Source: Lophium mytilinum
Lineage: Eukaryota > Ascomycota > Dothideomycetes > Mytilinidiales > Mytilinidiaceae
Direction: 5' to 3'
Length of the DNA stretch: 64,000 bases
NCBI GenBank assembly: GCA_010093605.1
Contig: MU004193.1
Location: 405,321-469,320 of the forward strand
Every line of letters begins with the position of its first letter. The first letter of the stretch is position 1. Of the stretch, positions 23,900 through 58,606 are shown one piece after another. Below the pieces are notes generated by a model. It was not told the origin of the DNA. It made no database searches and saw only the letters and a list, made by a program, of their open reading frames with translations. The position numbers were made by a program, and so were the translations under genes.

Positions 23900-24690
23900 A
23901 GTGTTAAAGGTCGGCCAATACGCAGGAGATAGCCAGGGATAGAGTGTTGTTGAATGCAGAGGAGTGTTGTTGTGAGGTGTTGAGGGCGTGAGCGGAGACA
24001 AAGACGGCCTGGGGCTTAGAACCCAGGTGCGTCGTCATACAGATCACGTGCGCTACATAAATATCTCTCCACCGAGCGCTTCAACTCTCAACCCCCTTAC
24101 ACGCCCTTGACATCGTCTCACATCTGTTTCCATCTCGATATGCTCCAACTTTCCATAACGAGGTTTGTTTCTCGTCAAGAAGCCTACTCATCGTCTGAGA
24201 TCATGTGACTATGTCCTTGCTGAGGATGAACGTGTCCAGGATTCCCACCAGTGAACACCACTATCGCCTCAGCGTAACTGATTCCTCGCTATTCACACTG
24301 TCAGACGATGGCTCGGAGTACACATCGTAAGAATCAATAACTCAGATGCCGTGAAAACGAGGTATGGAGATTCTAGTGAGTTTCATTGGTACAGCGTTGA
24401 GAAGCATGGTATGGTTTTGGGCCCTTGTTTCTATGCAAGAGGAAAGGATCAAATTAACATTTGAGATGTTGCATATACTCTCTGAAGAACCAAAGCAAAC
24501 GCTGACTAGATAACGACGACGCCCGAGGCTCATGGCTCCTTATATCTACTAGATTTCCTAAACTGGAGCAATGATTGAAAAATAACGTTTGTCAAGTCGC
24601 GGTGGTCGACGTGCCCGAAAAGGCGGCCTTGGAGCTACGTCCTTCAGTACCGTGCAGCCAGGAATGCGAGCCTCCCCGAATTAGGCCAAG
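23900..24690. other. Intergenic, left flank of the gene cluster
   Basis: Upstream of the minus-strand His-rich protein and downstream of the rhodopsin-fold gene. A small minus-strand open frame (24342-24533) has no recognisable feature. No gene is called. Confidence 0.5.
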
Positions 24691-25905
24691 TCAATGACAG
24701 TGATACTCGCTGACCCCCAGTCTCTCAACCTTCGAGATTGAGCTCATGTTGGTAGTCAATGGTATCTCGTCTACCTGGCGCGTCTCCGTATGAGGAGCTT
24801 TACGATTTGGGTCGACGAAACTCGGTAACGAAGGGGCCGTTGCTTTCGAGGCTGTTCTTGTAGTTCGGCCGACCCATCCAGACGCGGAACGATAAAGTAG
24901 TCGAAGCTTACTGTTGACAAATCCATCCTCTTTAGGGAGGTAGACGCGGAAGACAGGCAAGGAAGTGCAAATTACAGCAAATCCGAGATGGAGACCCGTC
25001 CACAGTGAAAGGCCGGCCATCGAGGTGATGGTGTCGTCTTTGCCCGGATGATAGCCGTAGACCATGCGGATGACGCCCGTTAAAATGACCCTGTTTCATT
25101 AGAAAGAATCTTGACGTGTGCAATGCAGAGACTCACAATCCTCCGGTCAGGAATATCGTTGCAATACCAAGTCTCTCTCGCAGTGGCAGCCTCAAATGCC
25201 AAATGATTCGAACTGGCAGACATACGAGCATCAAGTCCAAGCACGCATTGAAAATCTCGCTAGATAAGAATCCGGTTTGATTGTCAAGGCATTCTCCTTC
25301 AACGGTAGCGTCGAGCAGGGCAGCGATGGGCTTGCATTGGAACGACACGGTGAAGATGAGGCAAAGAAGCCAGAGGATAGACAGAGCACCAACGGTTTTG
25401 AGGCTCCATCCAAGCCACCGTTTGATGCTGAAGAGTCTGTAATACAGAAATATGACAGACATGCGCGCAGCGACTTCGCAAGCATCGGTCAAAAGGATTG
25501 AGGCATAAGCCGTCTGGAGTCGTTAGCAAGCCGTCTAGTCTCTCGTTGTGTAGTCATATTCTCAAGATATCCTCAGGACTCACCCGCAATGCATAATTCT
25601 GATCGGTAATAGAGAGTTCATGGGTCGGTATCCTTTTCACATGAGGTACGTTCTCTTCATGCCATGCCCTTTAGTATTAAGTCCACATATCATACTTTGA
25701 AAAGAAAGGATTTACCTAGAATAGTACAGGCGAAATCACCCCACATGAAGAGAAGCGCAGAGAATGAGATCCAATCATCCCATTTCAGGACTGCTTTGGT
25801 TCGCCTCCTTGCTAAAAACCGAAGGATGATAGCGGTCGTAGCCGCAAGACCCATGACAGCATGCAAAAGCCATATTTTGAGATACTCTCTATCCGCCTGA
25901 TCCAT
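24691..25905 (-). CDS. Fungal rhodopsin-fold (SAT4-like) integral membrane protein
   Basis: Polytopic membrane protein of the ascomycete family with a rhodopsin-like domain (Pfam PF20684, typified by SAT4); biochemical role unknown. Exons 25905-25716, 25654-25584, 25513-25137 and 25090-24691 join in frame to 345 aa. Visible family features are an N-terminal helix (LLHAVMGLAATTAIILRF) before the charged RRRTKAVLKWDDW, then DACEVAARMSVIFLYYRLF, LKTVGALSILWLLCLIFTV with the FQC motif after it, and the CLDLMLVCLPVRIIWHLRL segment with its LRERLGIATIFLTGG loop. A final membrane helix ends at LPVFRVYLP before a hydrophilic tail of about 75 residues. Members often lie in secondary-metabolite clusters. 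It starts back to back with the aminotransferase, suggesting shared regulation. The acceptor of exon 2 could be 2 nt further on. Confidence 0.85.
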
Positions 25906-26484
25906 TGTGGAATGGTAAAAGAAGTAAGATTCACGAAGAGGAGAGAGACACCTGAAAGTTGAAGAGCGCGGCGTATACCTTTTGTGGCCTACGTCCTTTA
26001 GTTCTCGATGTCGTGGAACGTTTCCTAGATCCCGAGTCACTAATAGTGTGTCACTTGAACCACCGCCGACGAGGAAGTGTGGCTCCACGAGAAAATTAAC
26101 TGATATCGGCTGCAGTCCGTGGAATCAGCCCACAGCTTCCGGGCCGATCACTCCTCCATACTCGATCATTGCATCATTGTATATCCTCGTGTTGTGTGCC
26201 ATGATCACAGAAAAGCTGTCCCATTCTTTGTACTCCCCGAGGAGTAGTTACAATACCCGGTCGCACAGAAGCCCTTCAAGAGCCAGATGGGACCCGAGTA
26301 AATCCCCGACACGGACTCCGGGATTTAATAGAGGTTGCTTCTTCTCTATTACGCACGGGTCATTGTGCACTTGCAGATGCAAGGAGCTTCGATGTATCTA
26401 TCAGAGAATAACGCAACCTCGTCTTCGCAGCCCATCAGAAACTCCCCTGAGAAACAGCTCAAATAGTGGCGTTATTTGGCTCAT
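25906..26484. promoter_or_regulatory. Divergent promoter region (rhodopsin-fold gene / aminotransferase)
   Basis: A 579-nt gap between two start codons facing apart. It must contain both 5' regions; no specific binding site is identified. Confidence 0.5.
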
Positions 26485-27915
26485 ATGGCTAGCAGACTTT
26501 CGACACACATGACAAAAAGTCTAGAGGGCCTTCTTTCCAGACTCGCAGCCGTTACACAGCCCAGGGAGTCGTCAGCGGACCTTGTTGATCTCTCTTCTGC
26601 CGAGAACCTCCTAGTTCGAGACCAGGTCCGAGAGATATGCATCAACGCTGTTCAGGATCACCTGACCACTGACGTTAGTAGCCACAATCCCGTTCCTGGG
26701 CAGCAAGTTATTTTAGCTACTGACATTTCTCCAGGCCCTTTCTCAACTTCCGAGCTTTGGCGGAGATGTCGACACTCGCACGGCGTTGGCTTCTTTCTTT
26801 AGCGGCTACTTCCGACCAGCCAGTACTGTTTCTTTTGACCAAATCGTCCTCACTGCTGGCGCAGGAAGCTGCGTTGAAGCGCTGGTCTATAGCTTTTGTG
26901 ATGAAGGGGATAGTGTCCTTATTCCAGGTCCATATTGGTGTAAGTGGTGACTACTCCGGGCTATTCAACATAAGTAAAAGTAAACTGAGATAAGAAATCA
27001 GTCGGTTTCGAACCTTATATCAATCTACGTCCAAAAGTCAACATCGTCACAGCAAATCCTCAAAGTTACGCACATCACGCTACGGATCTGCTCGCCACCT
27101 TGCGCGCCACGTACGCCGCGACCGAGAACCCACAGCGTATCAAGGCAGTCATACTATGCAATCCACACAACCCGTTCTCGCAATGCTATCCAGAAAACAT
27201 CCTACGATCGTGTATGAGCTTCTGCCAGGAGTTCAACTTGCACTTCATTTCGGACGAGCTTTATGCGCTAGCCGAGATAAATCCCACTAAAGAGCAGAGG
27301 TCGAAATTTGTCTCTGCTCTCTCGCTCGCCTCCGATCCCAACGATCACGATGGGCTCATAGATCCCAGTCTTGTTCACGTAGTCTGGAGTGCAAGCAAGC
27401 TATTTGGGCTCAGCGGATTTAGAATTGTAAGCCATCCTTATCCATGAAGATGACCTTCTGATTTACATCCTTTCTAGGGCTGTTTGGTATCTCAGGCTAA
27501 CCCTCGAGTGCGGGCTGCTGTCTCACTGCTGACTTATTCCAACACCTCTTCGCTCAGCGCCATTGCTCTGAAAGCCCTTCTTTCATCGCTTGATCTTTCT
27601 TCCCTCATTAACGTCAGCTCGCAGCGCTTGACTGACTCATACTCGCGCTTCGTTGAACTATTTGAAGAACGTGGTATCGACTATCTACCGGCCAACTCGG
27701 GACTGTTTGTCTTTGCAAAACTTGGGAAGAAGGCGACCAATGCCGAAGAAGAAGCAATCTTCTTCGAGAAATTGAAATTTGGCGGTGTTATGGTCAGCCC
27801 AGGCAGATTCTACATTGGCTTAAGCACGGAGTTCGGATGGGCGAGGATCACGGTGGCAGTGCCATTGGAAATTGTCGAAGTCGCCCTGGAGAGGTTGAAG
27901 AGATGTCTTGAGTGA
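26485..27915 (+). CDS. PLP-dependent class I/II aminotransferase (ACC-synthase-like)
   Basis: Fold-type I PLP enzyme, probably transferring an amino group to a keto or aldehyde carbon of a cluster intermediate. Exons 26485-26673, 26735-26939, 27002-27426 and 27478-27915 join in frame to 418 aa. The PLP-binding pattern is clear: TAGAGSCVEAL (phosphate loop), AVILCNPHNPFSQCY (Asn-Pro pair), FISDELYALAEI (Asp contacting the pyridine N) and WSASKLFGLSGFRIG, whose Lys (about residue 264) forms the Schiff base. The C-terminal FGWARITVAVP supplies the substrate-carboxylate Arg. Length fits the ACC-synthase/alanine-aminotransferase branch, common in fungal PKS and PKS-NRPS clusters. Start is the ATG of MASRLSTHMTKS; no in-frame upstream ATG is evident. 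Substrate is unknown. Confidence 0.92.
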
Positions 27916-28226
27916 ATATCTGGGAGCTGTGCACTGACAGGTACTGTTTCACATATAACTTCACCACTCCGCACAATATAGCTCTCTAATGCAGCTCTAA
28001 TAGTCTTCCAGAGTATTCAATCTGCCTTATTTACATCTATCAAGATGGGTGGAACTGAACAAGTACAGATACTGTATGGAACGCCCAGGCTTTCTTTAAG
28101 TAGCAGTAAGAGAGCATAGAGTCTACCCACATTTACAGTACTAGTTCCATTCTTAGTGCTATCATCTCATACTCCTTAATTATGTGCCACGACCTGTCAA
28201 CCTATACCCTCCTGAGAGTCCTCGAT
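27916..28226. other. Convergent 3' intergenic region
   Basis: Separates the stops of the aminotransferase (+) and the MFS transporter (-). It should contain both polyadenylation regions; no coding potential is seen. Confidence 0.5.
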
Positions 28227-30241
28227 TCAACCTGGCACCTTAATCTGCTTCGTTTTCCAAACCATCAGAGCGGCGAGCACACACACTCCAGCAAAGGCGG
28301 TAATAACTTCCATCTGCAAGCGATACCCTTCGACAAAAACTTCGTCCACGACAACTTTCACCGCGTGAGGAAATTGATGAATCACAGCCGTGGACTGCAA
28401 CAGTGCCTCTAGTTGCGTTGGTTCCAAAATCGAAGGCAGGTCCGATTTAAGCTTCGCGTTCATGAGACTAGTAGCCACCGAAAGACCAATGGTACTGCCA
28501 AACTGGCGAAACTGCATGATTGCACCTGTCGCCGTTGCTGTTTCAGACCGTTAGCGCTTGCTTCATTGACATCAGACATCTGCTGCGCTACTAAGCTACT
28601 TATGTCAGATAACGTACCTAGATCTTGCGTATCAACACTCAGCGGCGTCATAACAACTAAAGTCCCGAACATCATTCCGAGTCCTAAACCAGCAATGATC
28701 TCGCACCCGTACTGCGTTCCGGAAATCTCTTTTCCGGTGCCGTAAACGCAAAATAAGGACAGTCCGATCAACTGGAAACACGCTCCGGTAATGACGAAGT
28801 ACACTGGCGCACAAGCTTTCTGGCGTGATATAACCACATTTGCGAACACCGCGCCGAAAGGAGCGAAAAGCGCGTACGGGAGGAGTTGAAGACCGGATTG
28901 GAAAGGTGGCATATCGGAGATCATTTGCAGTTTCTGCGGGATGGTGACGACGAGGACACAGAAAGGTACGCCGAGAAATAATGAAACTCTGGTTTGATGT
29001 AAGCATGAAAGCCAGAGGTGAAAGAGACGTGAGAACTCACAGTAGCATGCCCATCCATGCCCTGTTATGCACGAAGCGCCATGGAAAGATGGGCTCTTGC
29101 ATATTGGGCCTGTTCGTAATATACCTTTCCCACAAAACGAATGATATAGCTAGAGCTGCGGAGAGTACTAGCAGCACAATGGTCGGCGCCGAGGACCAGG
29201 AAAATGCTGTAGAACTCTCGAGGAGAGATGTTACGAAGGTAAAAGAGGCGCCGATGAAAAGAAACGCTCCAAAAAAGTCCATCCGTCGTAGATTTGGTAA
29301 CAACGAATCTTGGAAGGGTGTCGATGCAGATTTTCGGTCGTGATGCGGGAAATTATTGGGGAGTGTAATGAAGAGTAGGATGATTGTTGACGCTCCGATC
29401 GGAACACTGATACGTGTCACCTTGATGATCCGTAGTGAGCTAAAAGAGTCTTACTTTATGAGGAATACCCAGCGCCAGGAAGCCTTCTCACTTATCAAGC
29501 CGCCGATAATTGGACCAAGCAATGTTGCTAATGCAACGACAGCAGAAACAATGGTCCCATAGAATGGATACTTGTGCTTAGGTACCATTTCAAAAACGAT
29601 AATGGAGGCTACGGAGAAGCATCCAGCACCTCCAAAGCCTTGGAAGGCTCGCAATATGACTCTGGAGTAGCGATTTAGTACTTTGGAACTCATAGGATAG
29701 GTAGTCTTAGAGGTCTTACAACTGCGTGATCGTCTGTGCAGCTCCACACCCTGCAGAAAATGCCGTAAAGCCAACAAGGGAGGCTGTTAGGGTCATCTTT
29801 CGTCCAATGATGTCGCTGAGCTTTGCCCATATAATGATCAATCCTTCAAGAGCGTTAAACACCCTCTTGGAGAAATACAAGAGTCTGAACTTGACATGCC
29901 TACCTGTATAAGTAGTGAGATATGCGACTATGACCCACCCCGTTCGACTGAAGGCCCGGAGATCATTTGAAATATCGACCAAGGCTGTGCTCACTACTGT
30001 AACTTCGAAGTTCGGTAGAAAGACCGAGCAGCAGACGCTTTTCGAATTAGTTTGTTGAGCAAATCGGGAGATAAAATGCATACCATAATGTTACGAGATG
30101 AAGTCTCCATCCCGTTAAATGGGTTCTTTCAAGAGCGCTGCCTCCTACTTCTACCTCAGTGACCTCATTGTATACAATCGGCTCCAAGGGCAGGATTGTC
30201 GATATTGGCGAGGAATCCTTTTCTATCTGTGTTTCTGCCAT
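28227..30241 (-). CDS. MFS drug:H+ antiporter-type exporter (DHA2-like, about 14 TM)
   Basis: Plasma-membrane multidrug or metabolite efflux pump. Seven exons (30241-30084, 30037-29904, 29843-29720, 29661-29455, 29406-29041, 28988-28618, 28537-28227) join with consistent phases to 556 aa. Visible features are a hydrophilic N-terminus, then NFEVTVVSTALVDI in the first helix. The MFS signature loop is WAKLSDIIGRK between helices 2 and 3. The motif-C region is ATLLGPIIGGLISEKASWRW, typical of H+ antiporters, with ending GAIMQFRQFGSTIGLSVATS. Length and the central KLQMISDMPPFQSGLQLLP loop fit the 14-helix DHA2 group. Its position between the aminotransferase and adenylation genes suggests product export or self-protection. 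Confidence 0.9.
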
Positions 30242-31068
30242 CTTGATGCGTTCTGCATGAACTGCTTGCGCTTTCAAGAGACTAGTGACAATAACGACGT
30301 CGAGAGACCGTTTTCAAAGAGCAGTTCAGAGGGTATTTCTATTCATCGCCGAAGCTTTTCCGCGCGGAAAAGTCAACCTTACTGATGGTGTAGCCATAAT
30401 CAGCGTCAAACATAGTTGGACACCGAGGCAGGGCATCATGATTGTGAAATGTGCCACAGTGCGACCGTTATGGTGTTCCCATTCCATGCCGCACAACCAA
30501 AGGATCAATTACCCCCTCAATTACTCTATTTCGTTCCGGAACCAGATGCTCGGCTACAGATTCCTTCAGTCCCGTGGGACCAAAAGAGCATGTTGGAGTC
30601 GATCATTTCGTGTTTGATATCGTTACAACGTAACGATTCCGAATCAAAGTGTCTCGTTACAGATGTGACATATCCGCACGGTCCCTGTCGGTGTGTGCAG
30701 AGATGTAGGTAGAGAGCTAAGGCGATGAGATACCCTCTCGCGAATATACTGGCTGCCTGGAATGCTAACTTTCCACCCGATCGGAACTTCCGAAAGATCC
30801 ATAAGGTACCACAAGCATTTGCGAGATAGCGTACAGTTATCCATGACCCATCGTTGTAATCTACTCGGTCTCCGGGCCCCGTGCAAGGCAGACTATCACT
30901 ATCACAATACTGTAGGCTCGAAGGTAACCCTGTCGCGGCATCAAATGGTCTTAATATTACGTTCGAAATGACCCATCATCCTTCACACAGAGAGATCATC
31001 GATCAGAATCTCACGCACCTATCACCTTTAACGGTAGCGATTCTCAGTTTCTTCAGTATTGTTCAGAT
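30242..31068. promoter_or_regulatory. Divergent promoter region (MFS exporter / adenylation enzyme)
   Basis: An 827-nt non-coding gap between start codons facing apart. Short open frames on both strands have no recognisable content. No specific operator is identified. Confidence 0.45.
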
Positions 31069-32795
31069 ATGGCTTCCATACAATTTGAAGAAAGGACCGA
31101 TTTCCCGACCCCAATGCCTATTCATCGCCGTAAACAAGTTCTCGTCAACGTCGTAGATGGCCTGGCCAAGGTCAAGCCCCATGGGACCTACGCCTATCTC
31201 CCTATCTCCCCAACAGGATACGAGAAAGGATTCAGGAAGCTGACCTATCAAAAATTTGCGAATGCAGTTAACGGCCTTGCATGGTGGCTAACGACGCAGT
31301 TCGGAAAGAGCACGTCCTTCGAAGCTCTGACGTATGTCGGCCCAAATGACTTCCTACACAACGCGTTGATTCTGGCCTGTGCGAAGACAGGGTATAAGGT
31401 GAGAATCTTGACCGTTTCTCCCCTCGTTCATATTTTAACAGTGAGTTTTAGCTTTTTCTGGCCTCCTTTCGAAACCAGCGAGATGCACTCAAAGCACTTT
31501 TTGAGCAGATTGAAGTCAAGGCTGTACTCACCTCTGATCCAAAGTCAGAGCTCACAGCTAGATATCAAGAAGCGTCTCCGATGCCCGCATTCCAGGTCCC
31601 AAGCGTCGAGATCCTCCTGAAAGAAAGCTTTCCCCACTACCCTTACCACAAAACATTCGAGGAATCGAAGAATGACCCCCTGGTGATTTTCCACACTTCA
31701 GGAACGACTGGGTCTCCAAAGCCTGTCGTTTACACGAATGACTGGGTAGCAGCGTACATGCAAGCGATGCAAACACTTCCGCCGGAAGGCATGGAAATGA
31801 AAGACAAATACATGTGCGGAACTCGTTTTCTTGTGATGATGCCACCCTTCCACGCTGCAAACATCTTTACAGTTTTCTGGATCCCCTTTGCAAACGAGAC
31901 GACCATCATATACCCACCAAAGGCTCTTCCGCCAACACTCAAGACCTTCATAGAAGGAATTCAGAGCATTCAAGTCGACACAGCATTCATTCCACCCCAC
32001 TTCATCAGCCAGCTAGCTGCCAACGAAGACTTGCTCAACATTGTCTCTAATAACGTGGAAACGCTCTTCACAGCTGGCGGCAAAGCAGTAGATGCCCATG
32101 GCGATATCGTAGCCGCGAAAATGGCCGGCCAATACCTGACTACTTACGGCGCCACCGAGATTGGAAACACCCCAGACCTGCTACCAAAAGGTATCCCATC
32201 ATCCAAAACTTGGAGCTACATTTCTCCGCACCCAGCTGCGGGCTGGGATTTTCGCCTTCACAAGCAGACAGATACGCACACAATCTACGAAGCATTCATC
32301 GTGCGGAACCAGGACCCAGACGTGGAGCAGCCTGTTTTCAAAATGTTTCCCGAGCAACAGGAGTATTCGACTCGGGATCTCTACCTCCCACACCCCACAC
32401 ACCCAAATCTCTGGAAATGGGCCGGCAGAACCGATGACACTATTGTCCTTGCATCTGGCGCGAATGTGTCCCCCATGGTGATGGAAACCGGAGTCAGCGA
32501 GCATCCAGCCGTTCAGGGAGTCGTGATGATTGGGAGTGGACATTTGCGCCCCGCGCTCATTCTCGAGCCGAGAGATTCGGACATAGATGGGGAAGACCTC
32601 GTGGAAAATGTCTGGCCGACGGTTGAGAACTTGAATCAGAGTTATTTTGAGGATCATCGGATTCTAAGATCTCATATCTTGGTGACGGCGAGAGAAAGGC
32701 CGATGGCGAGGAGTATGAAGGGGAGTATTCAGAGGAGTATGACTGTGGATTTGTATGAGGTGGATTTAGAAGATTTGTATATGAAATCTGGGTAG
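31069..32795 (+). CDS. Free-standing NRPS-like adenylation enzyme
   Basis: Activates a carboxylic acid as acyl-AMP. Exons 31069-31398 and 31452-32795 give 557 aa. Core motifs are HTSGTTGSPKPVV (A3, about residues 191-203), MMPPFHAANIF, LTTYGATEIGN (A5), YSTRDLYLPHP (A7), KWAGRTDDTIVLASGANVSP (A8) and SMKGSIQRSMTVDLY (A10, with its Lys). The sequence is closest in style to the A domain of fungal NRPS-like carboxylate reductases (A-T-TE/R). Here the frame stops about 15 residues after A10. No thiolation or reductase domain follows before the convergent hydrolase, and the 364 nt after the stop hold no remnant. It may load the PKS carrier, a CoA or an amine acceptor; which one is unknown. It could be a truncated former multidomain enzyme. 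Confidence 0.88.
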
Positions 32796-33159
32796 GGCAT
32801 TGGTCGTTTCTGTTGCAGGCGTTTCATCTGGTCTTAATTTTGTTCTCTTGTAGCTCCTACGCACACCTTCAAACAGCCTTCATATCATTCGATCACTTAG
32901 AACGCTCGGAAGGTGACCCACAACGCTAAATTCAAGGGACACCAACAATTCAAGGTCAGAAACTTTGCAGAAGTAGTGTTTGAAATTGGGGGTTGATGTT
33001 TTGTTTAAGGATTTTCGTTCACCGAGTTCAACTCATGAACGGATGTTCTCCTCCGCAGATCCTTTTTTTTTCGCTCGGAGACAGCATGGATCGCAGCTGT
33101 CAATGTGTGTCATCCGCTTAGACAATTTCCGGAGCCGAGTTCGGCCCCAGCTTCCCTCT
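32796..33159. other. Convergent 3' intergenic region
   Basis: Separates the adenylation enzyme (+) and hydrolase (-) stops. I looked here for a carrier-protein Ser motif or reductase remnant and saw none. A T-run lies at about 33063-33070. Confidence 0.5.
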
Positions 33160-34007
33160 CTACTTCGCATCGCCTGTAATCGCTCCCAACAGTTCCACAA
33201 GACGGTCCACCAATTGGACTGGTTGTTCAAGATGTGGAGAGTGAGACGAACCCTTCAAGATCATCGTCTTCTTAATGCCTCCAATCTCGACGAACTTCTG
33301 TTGAAGCTCATAAGGGAGTACCCTGTCTGCCTCTGTGAAGATGTACCCAAAGGTGCCCTGAAAATTCGGGTCATCATACGGGTCATAGTGGACGGGCAAG
33401 GCGAAACAGGAGTATGGCTGTCTGGGGAGTGCATTGGCCAGCCTTTCGGCTTCTTCGTCTGGGAGGTCGTGGAAAAGCATTGATTTTGCTTGCTGCTTTG
33501 GAATGACAACCCAGCCGGTAGATTTCTATAACGAGCTCGTTAGAGTCCATTTACGTGCGCAGTATTTCGGCCACTTACATCGTAATCAATCCAGTCGGGA
33601 AGGTTGTTTGGATCCATGCCCATAGCCGACATTGCTGATGTTCCTTTTCGAGCCACGAAGGAGGCGACCCAGAGTAGCGCAATAACACCGCCCTTCAGCC
33701 CATTCTCAGCCCTCTGCTTCTTGCTCAATCCCTCCACAGCGGACGGCCCGTAGATGCCTCCATATGAGTGCATGAACAGGACGACGTCTTTTCCTTCCTC
33801 GACAAGTGGAATGAGGACCTTCTCGCGGAGGTACTTCGCATCGAGGTTCATAGGCGGCATCACGGCTGGGTCATGTTCGGGGTAGCCCGGTGAGATGTCC
33901 CAAACGGTGGGAAAGCCTTTAGCCTTGAACGCCTGCATGACCGGGTCGAAGAACTCGACTGAAGGCCATCCGCCTGGGCAGATAGCCACGGTAGGTTTAG
34001 ATTCCAT
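33160..34007 (-). CDS. Alpha/beta-hydrolase fold protein (esterase/thioesterase-like)
   Basis: Small cytosolic hydrolase, 264 aa, from exons 34007-33579 and 33525-33160 (53-nt intron, GTAAGT donor). There is no signal peptide. The N-terminal strand TVAICPGGWP gives the oxyanion loop. VVLFMHSYGG contains the nucleophilic Ser (about residue 81) in a G/M-H-S-Y-G-G elbow. LKGSSHSPHLEQPVQLVD near the C-terminus supplies the catalytic His. The acid residue is probably in the FGYIFTEADRVLP region. This matches the AB-hydrolase family of small esterases that includes plant methyl-salicylate esterase-like proteins. Lying between the adenylation enzyme and the PKS, which has no thioesterase domain, it could release or trim the polyketide; that role is inference. 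Confidence 0.87.
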
Positions 34008-34186
34008 GATATGTTTGGACAATTGCCTCGGAAGCAAGAGGGAGAGAGAGGCTGGGTGGCAATGGCAGTTGTGTCGGGGTGAAGTCGATGTCGACGTTGC
34101 GATGTTGCGAGTACTAAGTGCTGGAGGCCTAAAGTAGCCGTGTGACGTTGTGCAGACCAATCATCTGATAGACTCAAGTGGAACAC

Positions 34187-34204
34187 CCGAGCGGCGCAGC
34201 GGGC
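34187..34204 (+). repeat. 18-bp motif copy 1 (ccgagcggcgcagcgggc)
   Basis: Matches the second copy at 34575-34592 at 17 of 18 positions and in the same orientation. Both copies follow a similar g(t)gaac lead-in. It could be a regulator site or debris of a repeat. Confidence 0.5.
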
Positions 34205-34574
34205 GCAACACAGTATTACTTGTGTTCCCCCCCGATTGATAACTAGGGCGTGTGCAACCAAGGTTGCGTATTCGCGAGTCTCGGTTTGTACACCCGCCCG
34301 TCTACCAATTAGTGGCGAAAGTGCGCTATCTTATCCCCCGTTTATTGACAAGCCAGTTAGAGCAATAACCAGGCATTAGCGAATGTCTATATAATTAGTT
34401 GGTTTAGCCCCCGATTAGCGGTAATCAGCGAATCTCGACAAGGATTACGGTTGATGTTTTGAGGCCACAAGTTTTAGTTCAGCAAACGGAATCCTCTTTC
34501 AGAAATAATGAAGAAATGTAAAGCCGGAAACATAACCAACTGGAAAAATCGTCCAATCCATGCCTGTGAACCGT

Positions 34575-34592
34575 CCGAGCGGCGTAGCGGGC
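34575..34592 (+). repeat. 18-bp motif copy 2 (ccgagcggcgtagcgggc)
   Basis: Second copy, 388 bp downstream of the first in the hydrolase/PKS divergent region, differing by one C/T. Confidence 0.5.
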
Positions 34593-35442
34593 TGGCGGCT
34601 GTCGCTCAGTATCACCAATGGCGTGTCACAAGACAAAAGCTTCTACCCCTACAATTTAATCAACAACTATTAGATTGTATTTCCCGAGAAGTAAGGCTAA
34701 GGTGTAGTCACACCAAACTACCAGGCTACAGTCGAACGGATGACGGTTGCGTAAGCCTGTGGTCCGTGCATAAAGGCTCTTCTTCCTGCACGGGCTGCTT
34801 CTTACGCTCATACCCCCTCCATTCACCAGTCCTACACACATCCCAGCATGCTCCAGCTCCATTCCTTCGCCGGGTTTGAGAAGTCCGTGGGAGATCCTCC
34901 AAATCACGGTCGCCGAAGAATCGAGCCGGGTACTACTAGAATACCTGCCCGTTTGTCGTCATGTCAAGACCTAGGCGAACCAATCTATTCCATCGCTAGG
35001 ATGTTGTTGCCCTCGTGTATCGAGCTCGGATTCCGAGAGCATCAATTCCATACAGTGCGATGCCGTGTGGTTGGAACATCTCCCCCCTTACTTGCCGACC
35101 GGCCACGATAGGTAGTGAAGGGCTTGAGTGCAGTGGTCTTGATACCAGAGCTATGGAACACCGGTAGCACACCCACATTCGTCTATAGTATTCTTCACTG
35201 TATTTCGAGTTAGGCAAGTACTCACCGGCATGGGGCAAGGCAGCCTAGATGTAACCGTTGTCAAGAGAGCCCCCGAGACTCTACGAGACTTTGGAGCCTA
35301 ACTATCTTTACGGGGTTGCTAAGAAAATCCTCTCCTTTTATCCCATAGCTCTGTTTCCGAATTCCTCAAATTGTAGCGATCAATTTTTCAATCCTAGAAA
35401 CCCTTTACGAATGTGCTTTCGCATCATCGTGAAAACAGCCCA

Positions 35443-38400
35443 ATGTCTAACTCTTTTCCGGTCGAGCCTCTTGCAATCATCGGATTCTCCTTTCGATTTC
35501 CCCAAAATGCAACTTCCGCAGAAGGATTCTGGAAGTTCATGGATGAGAAAAGATGCGCTGCGGGAAAGGTCCCGAGAGAGAGATTTAGCCTTGATGCATT
35601 CTACCACGCAAGTAAGGAAAGAAGAGATACGGTAAATATACAAGAAGGGCACTTCATGGACGGAGATACAGGAGCTTTCGACGCCCCCTTCTTCTCCATC
35701 AGCCCCGCTGAAGCTGCAGCGATGGATCCGCAGCAGCGAGGTATGCTTGAAACATCTTACCACGCACTTGAGAATGGTATGTAACTCGCCCAAGCTGATC
35801 GCTTTTCTTTTGCATTCGCTAAACTTTTCGGACTAGCGGGACTCCCGCTCGAATCAGTCGCCGGGTCCAAAACAGGAGTGTACATCGGCTGCTTCTCAGA
35901 CGACCATAGAATTCTGACACTCAAAGACCCAGAGCGGCTATCTAAGTATGCCGGCACTGGAACGGAATTTTCGATCCTTGCGAACCGACTGAGCTGGTGG
36001 TTCGATTTCAAGGGTCCTAGTTTCAACCTCGATAACGCGTGTGCAAGCGGTTTGACCGCGTTTCATTTAGCTTGCCAATCACTCAGGAACAGAGAGACAT
36101 CAATGGTAAGCGACTTCCATTTGCGCATTACAGGCGCGATACTAAGGCACGTCCACTTCAGGCTCTTGTAGGCGGCAGCAACCTCATGACCTCAATCGAA
36201 CAGTTTCTCCTTCTCTCGAATCTTTCTATGCTCTCTCCTTCGGGCCGTTCATTTAGTTTTGATCATCGCGCCAATGGCTACGGCCGTGGCGAAGGCTACG
36301 GTGTCATCATCATCAAAACACTTGCGGACGCTCTTGGCAGCGGCGATTGCATCCGCGCAGTCGTGAGAGCAACCGGGGCGAACCAAGACGGGAAGACTCC
36401 CAGTTTGACGTCACCCAGCCAGACGTCCCAAGAAGCATTGATTCGAGAGACGTATGAGCGGGCCGGCCTAGACTTGAAAGCAACGGCCTTCGTTGAGGCG
36501 CATGGGACTGGAACGGCTATGGGTGATCCAATCGAGGCTCGGGCACTTGGTCATGTGCTTGGAGCTGAAAAGAGTACGGACGATCCTCTATATATGTACG
36601 TCCTTGATCGCGCAGCGTTTGGGGGTAGTGGCTAATGCACAAACCGTCCATATAGTGGCGCGGTTAAGTCAAATATTGGCCATCTTGAGGGCGCGAGTGG
36701 GATCGCTGGCATCATCAAAACGATCCTGACTCTTGAGCGAGGAATAATCCCGCCAAACGCAAATTTCGAGAAACTCAATCCGGAAATCGATGCTAAAGCG
36801 TTGAATATCACAGTGAGTCTGATTTGTCAAACCATGCCAATCTAAAATTGACACAAGTGATACAGTTCCCCCAAGAATCTACACCATGGCCACACGACGG
36901 GCAACGGCGAGCATCAATCAACTCGTTCGGCTTCGGTGGATCCAACTCACATGCAGTTCTCGATGATGCCTGCAATTTCCTAAAATCTAGAGGGTTCAAT
37001 GGAAATCACCAATCAATTGATCTTGATGCAAGATGTGGAAGTTCTGGGCCGATTACCTTCCAAGCTTTCGCCTCCAGGGTTTCTGATCCGGCTCCGCCAA
37101 AGCTGCTCGCCTGGTCTGCGTTTGACGACAACGCCGTGTCCCGACTGATCCAAGCATATGCAAGTTACTTTGCAGCCGGTCCACCTAGAGCGCTGTCATC
37201 ATCCTATCTCGATAATTTTGCTCACACACTATCAGTCCGACGGACCGCGCTTCCTGTGAGAAGTTTCGCGATCGTGAAATCACCCTCACAGTTACGCGAC
37301 TTAGCAAATGCTACCTCAAAGCCGGTCAGAGCGAGACGGCATCATGGCCTGGCATTCGTGTTCACAGGCCAAGGCGCACAATACAGTCGAATGGGAATTG
37401 ATCTTTGCATCTTTCCGATATTCAAATTGAGTTTAGAGAAATCCAATCTGTGCTTTCGTGAGTACGGCGGCGAGTGGGATTTGCTCGGTAAGCCATAGTA
37501 TGGTGCCTTGTCGTCGATCCATGTACACTGTTCTGCCATTGCTTGTGGTGCTCCAAGAAACTTACCGAAGTCTGGAGCGACAAACAGCATAGCTAAGTGT
37601 GTACCTCCATCAGCAACCGCCTGATGTAGCCCAGCAAGCTTGGTGATAAGTCCGATCGACGAAGTTTAAAATGATCAAAATGTATCGAGGAGCTTCAAGC
37701 AGCGGCAGACAAATGCACACGGATCGGTGACGAGATATTGTATCTTTCGAACCCCTCCCTCTATTTTTACTGATGGCATACAGAGGAGCTAGCGAAGCCA
37801 GAACCGGAATCAAATATCCACGAACCAGAATTTAGCCAGCCTATTTGCACAGCACTACAGATTGCATTAGTAGATTTGTTACGGGATTTTGGCGTCATTC
37901 CACAGAAAGTGGTCGGTCATTCTTCAGGCGAGATCGCCGCTGCGTCAGTACATCAACTACTCTTATGCGATTTGGAGAAGCTGACTTAAACAGATACTCA
38001 ATCGGAGCACTCTCATTCTCTTCCGCCTTGAAAGTTGCCTTCTTCAGGGGCAAGGTGTCTGGAAGTCTTGCCAGGACCCCGGGTATCCAAGGTAGCATGC
38101 TAGCAGTTGGGCTCTCTGAGACTGAAGCGGGCGTCTACTTGGACGTGCTCCGGAGAGAGAAACCCTCGCAGAAGGCAGTGGTGGCCTGCATCAACAGTCA
38201 CAAGAGCATGACGCTTGCAGGTGATGCGATTGCGATCAGTACACTCAAAAAGCAGCTCGACGAAGATGGTGTCTTCGCACGCAAGCTCCACGTCAATGTC
38301 GCATATCATTCCCATCATGTCAAACCATTCTCCGAAGAATATCGTCAATCTCTGAACGGCCTAGAAGCTAGAGATCAGCACGATGAGACACAGCCTGTGA

Positions 38401-41400
38401 TGATTTCATCCGTGACAGGGCGGCCGGTGGATCCAAGCGAACTGGTAAAAGTGGAGTATTGGGTCAGTAATATGGAATCTTCCGTGAGGTTCATGGATGC
38501 TGTCAGCCAACTAGTTTCCTCCCCATGCGTCTCAAACGGCCTGAACGGCCAGAGAAGTACAAGCGAAGTCTCTGACATGTTAGAAATCGGCCCCCATGCT
38601 GTTCTACAAGGGCCGGTAAAGGACACTCTGACGGCACTAAATCAGGCTACAGCAATCCAGTACGGCTCGGTGCTCAATAGAAGGGTTGGTGGCGTAGAGT
38701 CATTCTTGAATGCTATGGGGCGCTTTTATTGTCTTGGCTACCCCGTTGACCTGGCCGCAATCAATGGACTATCGGAGAAGCAAAAGGACGAAACAAAAAT
38801 GCTTACCGATCTTCCTTCATATCCATTTGACCATTCAAAAGTCTATTGGAACGAGAGTCGACTAGGACGAGCCTTCCGTTTCCGAAAAGAAGCTCGCCTA
38901 GATCTACTGGGGCTACCAATCGCGGACGGTGGTCCTCCAGAGCTAGGACGGAGGTGGCGAAAAATCACAAGGATATTTGAGACTCCATGGGTGCAGGACC
39001 ATGTGGTATGTCTCCCTAATGATAGAGGTGCTGAAAGAGCTAATCGCTACAGATCAGCGAGACGACTATCTACCCTGCAGCAGGCATGCTTTGTATGGCG
39101 CTTGAGGCTATTCGGCAGATGGCTGATTCAGCAAAGAAGATCGCGGCGTACACTGTCAGAGATGCCGAGTTTCTCACTGCCCTTCGCTTGTCTTCTAAAG
39201 ATGAAGGGACGGAGTCGCATTTCTACGTACGCCCGCTGAATGACACGACTCATGAAGGAGATCTAACGGCAGAGTTCAAGCTGTATACGTTTCTAGAGGG
39301 TGTCTGGGCCGAGAATTGCCGCGGCACTATCCAGCTTTCATATGATGAGGAAGACATTAACCCTAGCCTGTCTCTGGAGATTCGCGAGAATATTCAAACA
39401 TGCACTCAGAGCGTCGATCGAAACAGTATGTACAGCGAACTGTTCGCTATGGGGATGCAGTACGGGCCAACCTTTCAATGTATGGACAGTATCTCTGTGG
39501 GACAAAGCAAGGATGCATTGGCCGTGGTTCGTACCTTTCAATGGATGGAGGAGCCACAGGATCATATCATCCATCCCGTCACCCTGGACTGCATCTTCCA
39601 TCCCACGCTAGTTGCGCTTACCAAGGCCACACATGAAAAGTCACGAACAGCTGTCCCGACAAGGCTACACAACCTGAGGCTATCTGGGGGTGGGATTTTT
39701 CATCCACTCACTTCGAAAGTCGAAGTGTATGCCAAGGTCGAGACACAAACTTCCAGAACTGCCACAGCTTCGTTGTATGGAAGCGACACTCGAGGCAATG
39801 CGCTAATATCCGTTGAATCATTGGAAGTTACTTTTGTTGACGACGGCAGCAAGGAAGAAGTCGGGACGACTCTACAGCATATATGCTACAACATTGATTG
39901 GAAGGTAGACATTGACATGCTTGATCAGTTCAATGTAGCAGATTACTGTCGATTTCATCTTAGAACCTCTTGCCACCGAAATCCAAACGATCGAATAAGG
40001 CCCGCTCTCGAGAGTTTGATGGACCTCATGGCTTTTAAGAATCCAGGACTCCGGGTGCTGGAGATTGGTGCAAGAGAAGGATCAACCACGCGAGAAGTTC
40101 TCAAGAGTGCTGCGATACGAACAGTAGACGGGCAGAAGTTGCCGGCTATTTCACTCTATCATCTTACTGACACCGAACCTGATCTCTTGGAAGCTGCCAA
40201 AAAGAAATTTGAGGATGAAGGCATTAAGATGGAATTCTCAATCCTTGACATCAATGAAAATCTGACGGATCAAGGCTTTCAAGAGGGGGTTTACGATGTT
40301 ATCATCACCAATGACGTGAGTTATGTCCCTGCCAGCTACTATCTTTACGCCTATTAACTCCCTTTACTTCAGCCTCAGCATTTGACCAGTCTGACGATGG
40401 CTAATATCAGAAAGCTCCTCAGAAAGTACGTATCATCTGCCGAAAGAACTAAAACCTTATCTAACATCACAGTGAGGGAAAACTTTATATGGTCGGTGTG
40501 GCGGAAGAAGATGTATGCAACCAAGTTCTGTCTCAAAATGGGTTCTCGCAAACGGGCATCTTCGTCTGCGACAGCCAACATCCGGTCAATCAGAGAATGA
40601 GTGTCGCTTTGTTTAGTGCTCTCGATAATAACAACCAGGAGATAGCCTGGCCCGATACTATCATCGTAGTCAACGACGAGACTTCGACAGACGCCCAGAT
40701 CGCGAATACCTTGCATGAAGCACTTCAACACTCGGGGCTTTCAACCATCTCGACAGTACCACTTCGTGAGGTTTCCACTATCGACTTGCATGGCAAGTTC
40801 TGCATCTTTCTAGCAGAGCTATCCAGACCGCTTCTGGCTGACTTGGATGAATCCACGTATTTGGAGCTTCGTTCCTGGCTTTCGAATGCTGGGGGAGTTC
40901 TCTGGGTGCATAGCAACGACAACCCAGCCTCCCATATGATCACTGGTGTTGCTCGCGTCTGTCGATCGGAGAATCCTGATGTCAAACAAGTCACGTTTGC
41001 GGTCGATACATCATCTTCAACCACAGTCAGCAACATTCTTCGTATTTTCCGGGAAACAATTACGTCTTCGGTCGATGAGATTGAACTGGAGTATAAGGAG
41101 ATAGACGGTCTTTTGGCAGTAAACAGGGCCATCCCCGCGCCTTATATCGATGAGAACATCCGGAGGAATGTAGCTCCACTGGAAGAATGCTCGAGAGTCC
41201 ATGTAAGTCCTCTTCTTGAAGGGCCAGGTGTCATATACTAATTTAATTCAGGCCACGATCCCAGCCTTTCCAGCCTCCTACTCATTCCCTGAGTACTCCA
41301 CTTACGTCCTCGCTGGGGGCTTTGGCGGTATCGGGCCAACGATCTGTCGCTGGATGGCAAGCAGAGGTGCCAAAAACTTCATCGTCTTGTCTCGCTCCGG

Positions 41401-42475
41401 TCCCAAATCTGATGCAGCTAAGATGTTGCTGCAAGATCTCTCTGTGCAGAATGTGCGAGTCGAACATCCAACCTGCGATATTTCATCCAAGGAACAGGTC
41501 AAAGCAGCATTAGCACTGTGTGCTGGAAAGCTTCCACCAATCAAGGGATGCATTCAAGCATCCTTGATACTCCAGGTATTCCAATCTTTCATTCCAACCC
41601 GAATAATTCCAGCTCCTGACTAGTACGCTAATCTCCATAAGGACTCCGTCTTCGAAACAATGACCTACAATGAATGGACAACCGCAATAGCCCCCCGCAT
41701 GCAGGGAACCAGCAATCTCCATGAACTCTTGCCAAACAACATGGATTTCTTCCTTCTCCTCTCTTCCATCAACGGTATACTAGGCGCCCGCTTCCAAGCC
41801 AACTACGCAGCTTCAAACACTTTTCTCGACGCCTTTGCGCATACGCATTACAAACAACGCGTCGTCTCCATTGATCTGGGCTGGTACGCCGGCACTCTCG
41901 CCACCAACGAATTCTTGAAGGGAAGATTTGAAGGCCTTGGATGCGTATACCAAGTGCCGGACTCGCAACTGTTAGGCTTGCTTGACTACTACTGTGATCC
42001 TACACGATCGGTTGACATCGGAAAGTGTCAAACAATGATTGGTGTCGCACCTCCGTCCTACGCAAGAGCTCAGGGCAAAGAATTCCCGGCATTGCTGAAG
42101 AGGCCGATGTGGAGAGTTATGAATTCTCTCGATACCGCAATCAGTGCTAAGGCCCAGACGGAAACATCGGAGCAAAAGCCCCTCCCGCTTTGCACACTCC
42201 TAGCCTCCACGGAATCAATCGCCGAAGCAGCTGATCTTATATGCAATACCATGTTAGGGAGGTTGGCGGAGCAATTAGGCATTCATGAGGAAATGATTGA
42301 CAAAGAAAAACCTTTTCATGTGGCGGGAGTGGATTCCCTGATGGCGGTCGAATTGAGAACTTGGTTCAGGAGAGCAATTGGAGTGAGCATCAGCGTCTTC
42401 GAGATCATGGGAAATGGGGGTATGTTTGGACTGTGTGTAAAAGCGGCGGAGAAAGTGGAATATAACAGGAAGTAA
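35443..42475 (+). CDS. Highly reducing-type polyketide synthase, KS-AT-DH-(short MT)-KR-ACP, no ER
   Basis: Iterative type I PKS, 2063 aa from 12 exons: 35443-35776, 35837-36105, 36162-36595, 36656-36812, 36866-37487, 37784-37943, 37994-39005, 39053-40315, 40373-40425, 40473-41202, 41252-41575 and 41642-42475; all phases agree. KS: Cys about 180 in LDNACASGL (usual form DTACSS), His in EAHGTGT and KSNIGH. AT: GHSSGE (Ser about 652). DH: His about 995 in WVQDHV and Asp about 1175 in [11 protein letters not shown]; Glu replaces the usual Gly after the His. [21 protein letters not shown], but only about 55 residues separate it from the DH. There is no ER: the structural-KR segment runs directly into the KR ([20 protein letters not shown]). 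The KR Lys position reads APRMQG (Arg about 1805). [13 protein letters not shown] (Ser about 2018). There is no thioesterase. Confidence 0.93.
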
Positions 42476-43077: not shown

Positions 43078-43082
43078 CCCGT

Positions 43083-43346
43083 TGTCAAAGGTATAGAGTT
43101 AATGGGAGAATAGATAGATAGATAGATAGATAGGAATTGTATTGCTTGAGTTCTATTCTGTATCGACAGCAACGGAGTTGTATATATACAGCATTTAATG
43201 CATTGTAAAACGTTTCTCTAACGTTCTTGTAACGTTATCTAACGTTTGTTGTATCACGTTTAAACGCTCACGGTTTCGTTCCGTTTAAAGGCTTTTGAGC
43301 CTATTATGCGTAAGGATATAACGCTTATGCTATTTTAATCCTTACA
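43083..43346 (+). mobile_element. Solo LTR, copy A, with 5-bp target duplication
   Basis: A 264-bp element starts TGTCAAAGG and ends CCTTACA. It is flanked on both sides by CCCGT (43078-43082 and 43347-43351), the signature of LTR insertion. It contains a GATA tract near its start and the motif ggatataacgcttatgctatt near its end, shared with copies B, C and D. No internal retrotransposon sequence is attached, so it is a solo LTR. Confidence 0.85.
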
Positions 43347-43351
43347 CCCGT

Positions 43352-44099: not shown

Positions 44100-44125
<26 letters not shown>

Positions 44126-46550: not shown

Positions 46551-46589
<39 letters not shown>

Positions 46590-54511: not shown

Positions 54512-54529
54512 CTATAAAAGTATAGATAA

Positions 54530-55429: not shown

Positions 55430-57787
55430 TCATGCATTCGGCCCTTGCACCTGAAAATTGTGAAGTAAACTTTCCCACTGCTGGTCAAACTCCATGGGTG
55501 CGAATGTAGAAGAAGACAGTGGATCGAAAGGTTGACTGAAGTCAAACGTGGAGGCAATTCCATCTCCTCCCCATAGTGGCTCTATAGGTTTCTCAAATTC
55601 CCCAAGGCTAGTAGCTATATCGTCCATAGAAAGGCCATCTTCTGGCCGTGGTTTAGAGTGTGGTACTCCTGCTTGTAGAGGTCTTTGAGCGCGGAGCATC
55701 TGAATGAAATGAGGATCGTCCTGCTCAGAATCCGATCGTTCCTCTTTGAAGGCTTCCCAGGCTTTGATAGTCAAGTTGCCGATTGCAAACAGAAGCGGCC
55801 GTTTCGGTCCGTCCCTAATGAACTCTGGATGAAATTCGTATGTCAATTCGAGCTGCCGCCAAGCCTCATGGTCACCTTCTCGACCTCTACGGCGCAATTC
55901 TTGCAGGAGATAAATACACGCCTTCCACTGAAAGTGTGTATTCACATGCCACGCAAATCCCTTGACACCCTTTTGTGTATATGCTAGATTCTGATACGAG
56001 ATGATTCGCAGACAGTTGCCGAACAACATGTCCTTCTCCCACTGTGGCATGCTCGCGCCGTCGTCATCATGTTGATAAGGATTGTGGGCCACAAACCTCA
56101 TCGTGCAGATAACAGCCTTGCCAAGGAATGCGCACATGAAGTGCCATGGTATTGATTCGTCACAGTGTCTCAAGAACTTTCGCTCGAGGAGTTCTTCAAA
56201 CTCATCGATGGCCTTGTCTTTGCGCTCATTCGGAATGGTATTGCCGCTCAGTCGACCCCAGCTCCCATCAAAGGTGGTCTTAGGCGCAGAGCGTCGGAGG
56301 AAGTCTCCCACATGACTTCGAAGTAAGAAGAACATCATTTCCGTCGGCCCATCGTGCTCCTTCGGGAGTTCCTTCATGTCGGGGAATAGATCGCTATCAT
56401 TCAGGTTTGCAGGCATTTTAGTATCGCCGATAGTCATGACGGTGCCTGTCCCAGCAAGCTTTTCGGCGTAGCCATCGTGTCCAACAATTTGCCACCAGAG
56501 TCTTCTTCGCATTTCTGTTTCAAACGCAGGCAAGCCGAGGGTATCACCGTCGCGATGAAGGCCGTTCCGTTGTCCAAGTCGACTCGCTACCCCCGTCAGG
56601 ATCCACAGCGCTTTAGCGTCATAGCCGTTCAAAGAAATCTACCAGATAGCGTCAGCTTATTGGCCGTTCAAGGAGCGCATTGTGATCCTTCAGAGCACTG
56701 CAACCGAAGCGATTCTTCCATAATGTCTTAGGTTGGGTGTGATTGTGCAAAGCAAGAAAGGATTGAATCATAATCGAAGGAACGGCACTTCGGTGATAGC
56801 AAGACGACAACTTACCAGATAGAGTACAAATGCCTGGAGTACCACAATATCACTAGATTTGAGCAAGCCCGCGTTTACGAGGGCCTGGCGTGATCCTGTT
56901 CGGAATCTTCTGACACAGGCAACTTTCGACTGACCTAATATAGCATCGCACTCCGAATCGTCCAGTGTATTGATTGCGCAACAGTATATTGAAAATAACA
57001 AAGCCTCCAGATTTCTCGGCAAAGCTACAAGATTGCCGATTGAATTAAGGAGAGACTGTTGGACAGTTGGACTGTGAAGGACCTTTACAAGAGGGTGAAC
57101 ATTGTCTAGATAGACTTGCCAGAGCCTGAAAATCTGTACAGGTTGAGGATGAAAATGGTGAAGAGAGCCGCTGGGACGAGGGAAGCCCAAGATCATGTCG
57201 TCCACTTCAGAGAAGAATTCTGGCGTGGAATATTCGGTGCCTTCTGGTTCCTCGTCGCCTGACGAGTCTTGGAGCAAAGCTGCTGGATCTCGAAATTCGC
57301 CTTTCAGGCTCGTCCATAAATTATTCTCAAGGTACCTTGACTTGCCGTCTTCGACCACGAATAGGCCTTGATCAACTCGTGACGCTTCGGCGTTGCCGTC
57401 AAACAGAGTATCATCAGCGCCATTCCCAGCTGGAGATGCAAAGCCTCCACCCTGAAGTAGATGGCTTGCATCTCCATTAGCTACATCCGCGGGATTGACT
57501 CCAAGCCTTCTAAGAGCCGCCTCATATAACTTGATCCTTGTAGTGATATCCACTTCCTGCCCTCTTTTCTTCCTTCGACGAGGTGGGGGCGGGGCTCGAT
57601 AATCGCATCGGACGCGAGCTTTGTTGCAATTGGAACAGCCGCGAGGGTTCTTGTCGCACTTGACTTTGCGTTGTGAGCACGTAACGCAAGAAAAGCTCTT
57701 CTGCACGGCAGGTGTATGGGGATTGGTTGATGGCGACGTCGAAGAGGTCATGGGTGGAGACGGGAGAGATGCGTCCAGCGTCTCCAT
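55430..57787 (-). CDS. Zn2Cys6 fungal transcription factor with Fungal_trans domain
   Basis: Nuclear regulator, 726 aa, from exons 57787-56816 and 56638-55430 (177-nt intron, GTAAGT donor). The Zn2Cys6 binuclear cluster is complete at residues 34-61 (CVTCSQRKVKCDKNPRGC then SNCNKARVRC). A Pro/Arg/Lys-rich linker (PPPRRRKKRGQ) and a short coiled-coil (RIKLYEAALRRLG) follow. The middle-homology domain starts near residue 220 (IFRLWQVYLDNVHPLVKVLH) and includes ILTGVASRLGQRNGLHRDG and FETEMRRRLWWQI, joined exactly across the intron. It lies 13 kb from the PKS on the far side of the transposon block. It could be a cluster regulator displaced by insertions or an unrelated neighbour; nothing in the sequence decides. 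Confidence 0.92.
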
Positions 57788-58606
57788 TTTCGATTGAGTT
57801 GCCTCGTAGCTGAAATGTCGAGGTTAGTAGATTAGCGTTATATATGCGCAGTATTCTCCATGCACTTGTCCGTTGTAAGACCTGCAGTATCGGTTGCGGA
57901 GGCTTGCTTATGTCTGGATTTAGGCAGTAGTTTTCAGGGCCTATCCCTTAGTTGTAGAGAGCGCACTCGGGATATTGTTGAAGGAGCGTCGTCAATTCAA
58001 ACACCGTAACACAGTCGTGACCAACATCCCTCATCGAAGATTGTGACAGGCGTGGACTCTCTGTCGCTCTGCTGTCGTTACGGAGTGGACAAAGGCGGCG
58101 TCGGAGATGTTGTAGCGGCATCCCCGACAATCTGCCTCGAGCTTCATGACGTCTATTGCTACATCCGCGCAATCAACACACGGCTAGCTACGGGCAACGG
58201 AATTCATCTGATTAATGAAGACTTCACGTTCAACTAACGGATTTACGGCTAAATCTGATCGCGAAGAAACATTCTGTCTTCAGTAGATTGGAGAACGTCC
58301 AATGGAGACTGATATTCTGTAACCCATGTGACCCTAGCGATGAGATAAATACACAACTAAATAGCAATCAAGAAACCTGTACCGTTTGACCATCCCTAGT
58401 GCAGCTCGCCATTCAGCTATGCAAACCCGAGTGCGAACAATGAATGCACTTTCCCAGCAATAATCACGCCAAATGAGAGCCGAATCGGGCCCACCCTGAG
58501 AATAAAGAGCAACAGCATAAGCTACGCAGTGTCATCCAAACTCAGGTATCAAATGCACATGAGGTCCCTGACAGAACGTCAAGCGGCTTCCGTGACTCTG
58601 AATGTC
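57788..58606. other. Intergenic between Zn2Cys6 gene and protease
   Basis: The promoter of the Zn2Cys6 gene and the 3' flank of the protease. Only open frames under 75 codons are present, without recognisable content. Confidence 0.5.

Follow-up and report, generated by a model that had tools for sequence, protein, structure and literature searches.

A reducing polyketide synthase locus in Lophium mytilinum and its candidate sister cluster in the same genome

Do six neighboring genes on contig MU004193.1 of the dothideomycete Lophium mytilinum (assembly GCA_010093605.1) form one biosynthetic cluster, and what might such a cluster make? The window analyzed here is the whole 64,000-nucleotide stretch from position 405,321 to 469,320 of that contig (C13:405321-469320 within a genome of 43.18 Mb in 24 contigs, the genome covered by the same-genome searches). 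The six genes code for a polyketide synthase (PKS), a free-standing adenylation enzyme (ADE), a major facilitator superfamily (MFS) exporter, an alpha/beta hydrolase (ABH), a pyridoxal phosphate (PLP) enzyme and a Fung_rhodopsin membrane protein (RHOD). The closest relatives of PKS, ADE and MFS found in this genome lie together at a second locus, C17. The best explanation of the gene comparisons is that the window holds a rebuilt sister of the C17 cluster.

Results

Six intact genes and their closest relatives

Spliced models, built by trying GT-AG introns between open pieces, gave six uninterrupted, intact proteins between 24691 and 42475. Together with Pfam they bore out the coordinates, strands and families of an earlier note, which had described six genes on alternating strands as three divergent pairs. 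Within the window the genes are as follows.

24691..25905, minus strand: RHOD, 345-aa membrane protein, Fung_rhodopsin family (exons 25905-25716, 25654-25584, 25513-25137, 25090-24691)
26485..27915, plus strand: AT gene, 418-aa PLP enzyme, ACC (1-aminocyclopropane-1-carboxylate)-synthase-like (exons 26485-26673, 26735-26939, 27002-27426, 27478-27915)
28227..30241, minus strand: MFS exporter, 556 aa, seven exons, Pfam MFS_1 and TRI12
31069..32795, plus strand: ADE, 557-aa free-standing adenylation enzyme (exons 31069-31398, 31452-32795)
33160..34007, minus strand: ABH, 264-aa alpha/beta hydrolase (exons 34007-33579, 33525-33160)
35443..42475, plus strand: PKS, 2063 aa, KS-AT-DH-(methyltransferase relic)-KR-ACP, without an enoylreductase (ER), 12 exons

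The product of the AT gene is called the PLP enzyme below, to keep it apart from the AT domain of the PKS.

Relatives of the PKS ketosynthase (KS) domain were found at two places on C17, on C15, C5, C2 and C3, and at two weak places; two PKS places lie near relatives of ADE. Summed over pieces, the KS matches reached ~470 bits at C17, 441 at C17b, 423 at C15, 390 at C5, 315 at C2 and 236 at C3. Comparison of the whole PKS was made with the loci C17 (1497 bits), C5 (1311), C17b (1224) and C15 (1139), that is, without the PKS loci on C2 and C3. Among the fetched loci ADE likewise scored highest at C17 (381 bits, followed by C15 with 282, C2 with 225 and C10 with 203), as did MFS (298 bits, against 91 at C17b). 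Genome-wide, among 78 of 162 candidates, MFS matched C17 in six pieces with ~365 bits, then C4 (~175 bits in four pieces) and C5 (159 bits).

These best matches are neighbors: tblastn on the fetched regions placed a PKS, an MFS gene, a Fung_rhodopsin gene and an ADE within ~16 kb at C17:749-765 kb. The PKS-ADE-MFS linkage is thus present twice in the genome, and since the closest relatives found there lie together at C17, the three genes look like an inherited unit. Intron positions in the PKS were compared in a coarse test of 11 window positions, read on 10 (residue 1678 was omitted as the ER site of the relatives). Eight of the 10 are shared with C17 (seven appear as alignment breaks, one within an alignment), five each with C17b and C5, and none with C15. 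The proposal of the earlier note that the six genes belong to a biosynthetic cluster gains support from the joint occurrence of these closest relatives in a second cluster.

The C17 cluster shares with the window a PKS, an ADE that carries neither a carrier (T) nor a reductase (R) domain in the frames scanned, an MFS gene, a Fung_rhodopsin gene and a hydrolase divergent from the PKS. It differs in having a PKS with an ER and a GAGTG methyltransferase (MT) motif, a hydrolase of the FSH1 family and a cytochrome P450 (P450) gene nearby. A further locus, C15:1553-1568 kb, combines a PKS, an adenylation domain of the same type, a hydrolase divergent from the PKS and a Fung_rhodopsin gene. However, its adenylation gene is of the adenylation-carrier-reductase (A-T-R) type, its PKS has a weak ER match and its hydrolase is again FSH1. 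None of the tested intron positions is common to C15 and the window, the C15 MFS does not match that of the window, and no match to the PLP enzyme was found there.

A PKS that lacks ER and part of its methyltransferase

Above the Pfam cut-off the PKS contains KS, AT, DH, KR and ACP in one chain and in this order, the arrangement of a fungal reducing type I PKS. Motif comparison with the four relatives found the catalytic positions of all five domains kept. Among PDB sequences the top KS match was 7zma, a "putative polyketide synthase" (E 1.4e-158); the best named fungal match was LovB, the lovastatin nonaketide synthase (E 2.3e-119). The window PKS differs from LovB in the missing ER, the broken MT, the altered KS motif and its shorter length (2063 aa versus 3046 for the LovB chain).

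Relics of lost domains and genes were sought throughout the 64 kb with queries from related loci (three FSH1, one P450, two ER, one T+R and one MT piece) at E up to 1, with the C17 ADE as positive control (matched at 8.5e-57). None of the relic queries gave a convincing match; the highest-ranking one came from an ER piece (E 0.047) and fell outside the six genes, at 21103-21228. Accordingly for ER, the PKS has no Pfam match, and neither the C17 nor the C5 query found anything convincing in the 64 kb, so that the complete reductive set of a highly reducing PKS is not present. In the relatives ~1 to 2 kb separate the KR from the preceding match, and frames in that stretch have zinc-dehydrogenase-type (ER) Pfam matches. 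The match is strong in C5 and C17, just above the cut-off in C15 (29.0 versus 27) and, in the C17b frame scanned, limited to the first part. This stretch has no counterpart before the KR of the window PKS.

MT models matched the PKS only below the Pfam cut-off. Its motif reads LEIGAREG, compared with GAGTG in C5 and C17, GSGTG in C17b and another degenerate motif in C15, and the piece that precedes the motif in C17 has no match in the window; a full MT domain with an intact S-adenosylmethionine motif is therefore not present. The KS active-site motif has changed as well, from DTACSSS or DSACSSS in the four relatives to DNACASG in the window.

We also considered that the PKS gene might be broken, since it appeared initially as fragments, and rejected this because every break can be read as a GT-AG intron. 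One of these introns is 296 nt long (37488-37783), at a place where C17 has a 58-nt gap. The sequence of the 296-nt intron matches only its own copies among the fetched loci.

A different hydrolase, an exporter and a rhodopsin-like protein

ABH belongs to Abhydrolase_6 (PF12697, E 2.2e-13) and is divergent from the PKS, the place that FSH1 takes in related loci. FSH1 hydrolases were found near all four PKS relatives, pointing away from the PKS (with an MFS gene in between in C17b), and the three FSH1 queries had no match in the window. The hydrolase of the window is of a different family.

MFS was assigned with PF07690 (E 8e-44) as well as TRI12, and RHOD with PF20684 (E 2.6e-44), although a crude hydropathy scan of RHOD showed four strong membrane segments and not seven. 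The Fung_rhodopsin family has at least 138 matching pieces in the genome, of which several may belong to one gene. Family members occur within the C17 cluster, alongside the C15 PKS and close to a locus on C2 described below. Co-inheritance of RHOD with the cluster was considered and dropped, since its closest relatives are not the copies at C17 and C15. RHOD is the weakest member of the set, its neighborhood being suggestive of membership.

An adenylation enzyme without carrier and a PLP enzyme close to ACC synthases

ADE consists of AMP-binding (PF00501) and AMP-binding_C_3 (PF23562), after which the protein ends with no carrier or reductase domain. It is thus not an A-T-R carboxylic acid reductase, in which T and R follow the adenylation domain, and the C15 T+R query found no T or R relic in the window. 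Its relatives in the genome are on C17, C15, C10 and C2. The C15 gene is A-T-R and the C17 ADE lacks T or R in the frames scanned; the T/R scan covered these two loci, without those on C10 and C2. The motifs of the ATP site are present. Amino-acid-activating domains typically have an Asp that binds the alpha-amino group, and the corresponding stretch of ADE, PPFHAANIF, has none; a plain carboxylic acid is therefore the likelier substrate.

The earlier note had taken the product of the AT gene for a PLP aminotransferase. It is a PLP enzyme by Pfam (PF00155, Aminotran_1_2), and PLP-site motifs were found, but it is nearest to ACC synthases, and aminotransferase is just one option. ACC synthases gave the best PDB matches (E 1.4e-38; first aspartate aminotransferase at 1e-14), and with the C-terminal piece alone they were the only matches at E up to 1e-5 (six sequences). 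A PYW replaces the PYY of the aligned ACC synthase; Trp at this position is common in aminotransferases. A lyase or another PLP reaction appears as open as an aminotransferase reaction. A fumonisin-like oxoamine synthase was rejected, since no such name occurred among the 55 PDB sequences matched. NCBIfam assigned no family above cut-off to the PLP enzyme, ABH or ADE among the matches listed.

The sole close relative of the PLP enzyme in the genome is at C2:2154 kb (35% identity). The surrounding locus, C2:2139-2169 kb, contains an NRPS (nonribosomal peptide synthetase), a DMATS, a GST (glutathione S-transferase), the ACC-synthase-like enzyme, a pyridine-nucleotide-disulphide oxidoreductase frame, two methyltransferase frames and a Fung_rhodopsin gene; neither a dipeptidase nor a P450 turned up in the frames scanned. 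In these predicted genes the locus resembles a cluster for an epipolythiodioxopiperazine (ETP). The ETP clusters for gliotoxin and sirodesmin carry an ACC-synthase-like gene "I", according to an excerpt of PMC2045112, and this gene type is what they share with the window; none of the six window genes encodes an NRPS, a GST or a thioredoxin-reductase-like protein.

Promoters, a candidate regulator and the flanks

Three divergent promoters separate the gene pairs, and a regulatory gene lies farther to the right.

25906..26484, unstranded: divergent promoter RHOD/AT gene, one CGG-N3-CCG site (26312)
30242..31068, unstranded: divergent promoter MFS/ADE, two CGG-N3-CCG sites (30866, 30873)
34008..35442, unstranded: divergent promoter ABH/PKS, two CGG-N3-CCG sites (34907, 35027)
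55430..57823, minus strand: Zn2Cys6 transcription factor gene, two open frames, PF00172 and PF04082

CGG-N3-CCG is the kind of site bound by Zn2Cys6 factors. It was chosen after 45 site types had been viewed, and its 12 copies in the window are, overall, what chance predicts. Five of the 12, however, fall in the three promoters, at least one in each, although together these cover 4.4% of the window; the probability of this placement is 7e-5 if sites are placed uniformly, or ~0.003 after multiplication by 45. The 17 fetched loci scanned, 170 kb in total, contain 21 such sites. These putative sites hint at a single regulator for the three promoters. Six sites of another type, CCG-N2-CGG, are spread over two of the three promoters. 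In the ABH/PKS promoter, two near-identical copies of CCGAGCGGCG(C/T)AGCGGGC stand at 34187 and 34575, and neither strand of the window contains a further exact copy.

According to the earlier note the cluster had no P450 and no regulator of its own, and its tailoring would be limited. No P450 was found with the one C17 query, and a single query cannot exclude every P450 family. No regulator is among the six genes, but the Zn2Cys6 gene lies outside them, across an AT-rich block. That gene is a possible but unproven regulator of the cluster; upstream of it, at 58584, stands a CGG-N3-CCG site. Limited tailoring fits the gene list and the domains lost from the PKS.

In the AT-rich block (42000-56000) GC falls to ~25%, with a dinucleotide bias of the type left by repeat-induced point mutation (RIP). 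Each 2-kb step from 42001 to 56000, between the PKS and the Zn2Cys6 gene, has a RIP signature, and the composite RIP index is negative in all steps from 24001 to 42000. Copies of a ~235-nt repeat occur in both orientations at 43114, 44110 and 49329, and partly at 45457-45883.

To the left of the six genes is a gene of the CoA-ligase type (19942-22101), with AMP-binding and AMP-binding_C in its second frame; its product ends in AKL, a possible peroxisomal signal. At 18599-18703, five tandem 21-nt units lie within an open frame repeating GLSSGPT.

Discussion

What could these genes make? With no ER and a broken MT, the PKS would build an unmethylated, polyunsaturated chain, which ABH may release as an acid and ADE convert to the acyl-adenylate. 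Because ADE has no carrier domain, the acyl group would go to a free acceptor, an amine or an amino acid being the likeliest; the PLP enzyme might supply or modify this acceptor, and MFS would export the product. The chemistry of this pathway is inferred from protein families and motifs. In the scheme of the earlier note, a polyketide acid is released, adenylated and aminated. Release is plausible in view of ABH, divergent from the PKS as FSH1 is, and adenylation is plausible in view of the ATP-site motifs and of an ADE that ends before any carrier or reductase domain. Plain amination is unproven, because ACC synthases are the nearest PDB matches of the PLP enzyme, whose sole close relative in the genome sits in the ETP-like locus.

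The reading we favor, tentatively and at a little less than an even chance, is that of an intact fungal secondary-metabolite cluster around a reducing PKS, which follows the pathway just outlined and is a rebuilt sister of the C17 cluster. A narrower version seems unlikely: a carrier-free amide or ester assembly line, in which a reductase-type ADE devoid of carrier and reductase domains, an ER-less PKS and a PLP enzyme of the ACC synthase family join a polyunsaturated acid to an unusual amine, the hydrolase family and the PKS domains having changed since the split from the C17 sister.

Several observations weigh against the favored reading. Nothing in the fetched C17, C15, C17b and C5 regions matches the PLP enzyme or ABH; lacking counterparts at C17 and C15, the two genes are possibly later neighbors. 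The RHOD family is large, and its C17 and C15 members are not the closest relatives of RHOD. Since the MT motif of C15 is likewise degenerate, a broken MT does not set the window apart. No word of eight or more bases is common to all three divergent promoters, and CGG-N3-CCG is missing from the PKS/FSH1 and RHOD/ADE promoters of C17. As to ADE, NCBIfam scores of 66 bits for a fatty-acid ligase and 58 bits for amino-acid adenylation are both far below cut-off, and the enzyme could prime the PKS instead.

Two alternatives concern the division of labor among the genes. ADE and the PLP enzyme might act first, making and activating an unusual starter acid for loading onto the PKS; the changed KS motif, DNACASG where the four relatives have DTACSSS or DSACSSS, would fit an unusual primer, and the ACP of the PKS could serve as partner for an ADE that has no carrier of its own. 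Yet at C17, too, no T or R follows the ADE in the frames scanned, although the PKS there has DSACSSS; the lone ADE therefore does not track the KS change, and we regard this order of events as improbable, though worth keeping in mind. We give about the same small weight to a smaller unit, in which PKS, ADE, MFS and ABH cooperate and RHOD and the PLP gene are mere neighbors with other roles. The PLP gene is indeed unmatched in the fetched C17 and C15 regions, and the size of the RHOD family and the distance of its C17 and C15 members point the same way. On the other hand, the promoter between RHOD and the PLP gene has a CGG-N3-CCG site like the other two, and both the C17 cluster and the immediate neighborhood of the C15 PKS contain a Fung_rhodopsin gene.

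By function, the closest described set is the FUB (fusaric acid) cluster, which in an excerpt of PMC10967133 comprises a PKS, a serine hydrolase, an O-acylhomoserine (thiol) lyase, an NRPS-like enzyme and an MFS gene. It thus shares with the window a PKS, a separate hydrolase, a PLP enzyme, an NRPS-like enzyme and an exporter; its own features, in the same excerpt and in one of PMC9605436, include the acid-reducing NRPS-like Fub8, the O-acylhomoserine (thiol) lyase, further enzymes and two regulators. It is tempting to extend the likeness to chemistry, with the polyketide acid activated, reduced to an aldehyde by a reductase encoded elsewhere and fused with a PLP-derived amino-acid fragment into a nitrogen ring. 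Fub8, a fungal A-T-R enzyme, acts on trans-2-hexenoic acid, which it reduces (excerpt of PMC9605436), and the C15 relative of ADE is an A-T-R enzyme as well. However, the window has neither an acid-reducing NRPS-like enzyme nor an O-acylhomoserine-type PLP enzyme: the C15 T+R query detected no trace of a reductase or carrier, the PLP enzyme resembles ACC synthases most closely, and none of the six genes codes for an aspartate kinase, a homoserine acetyltransferase or an FMN enzyme. We consider a fusaric-acid-like route rather less probable than either alternative above. No published cluster matching the six genes was found in the open-access literature, which is weak evidence; the available portion of PMC4205913 does not contain the terms "aminotransferase," "rhodopsin" or "AMP-binding."

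Least probable of all, in our view, is a decaying cluster that yields no product, with the loss of ER and part of the MT beside a RIP-mutated block taken as erosion. The domain losses and the RIP signature in the 2-kb steps from 42001 to 56000 would agree with decay; against it stand six complete frames, including 2063 PKS codons with catalytic motifs kept, and the negative composite RIP index in every step from 24001 to 42000.

If the favored reading is correct, two sister clusters in one genome offer a natural comparison of related PKSs, activating enzymes and exporters: C17 has an ER, a nearby P450 and FSH1, whereas in the window the ER is missing and a PLP enzyme and a different hydrolase are present. 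Comparing their products would show how chemistry changes through the loss of PKS domains and the exchange of accessory enzymes, and would also reveal the function of a reductase-type adenylation enzyme that has neither a carrier nor a reductase domain.

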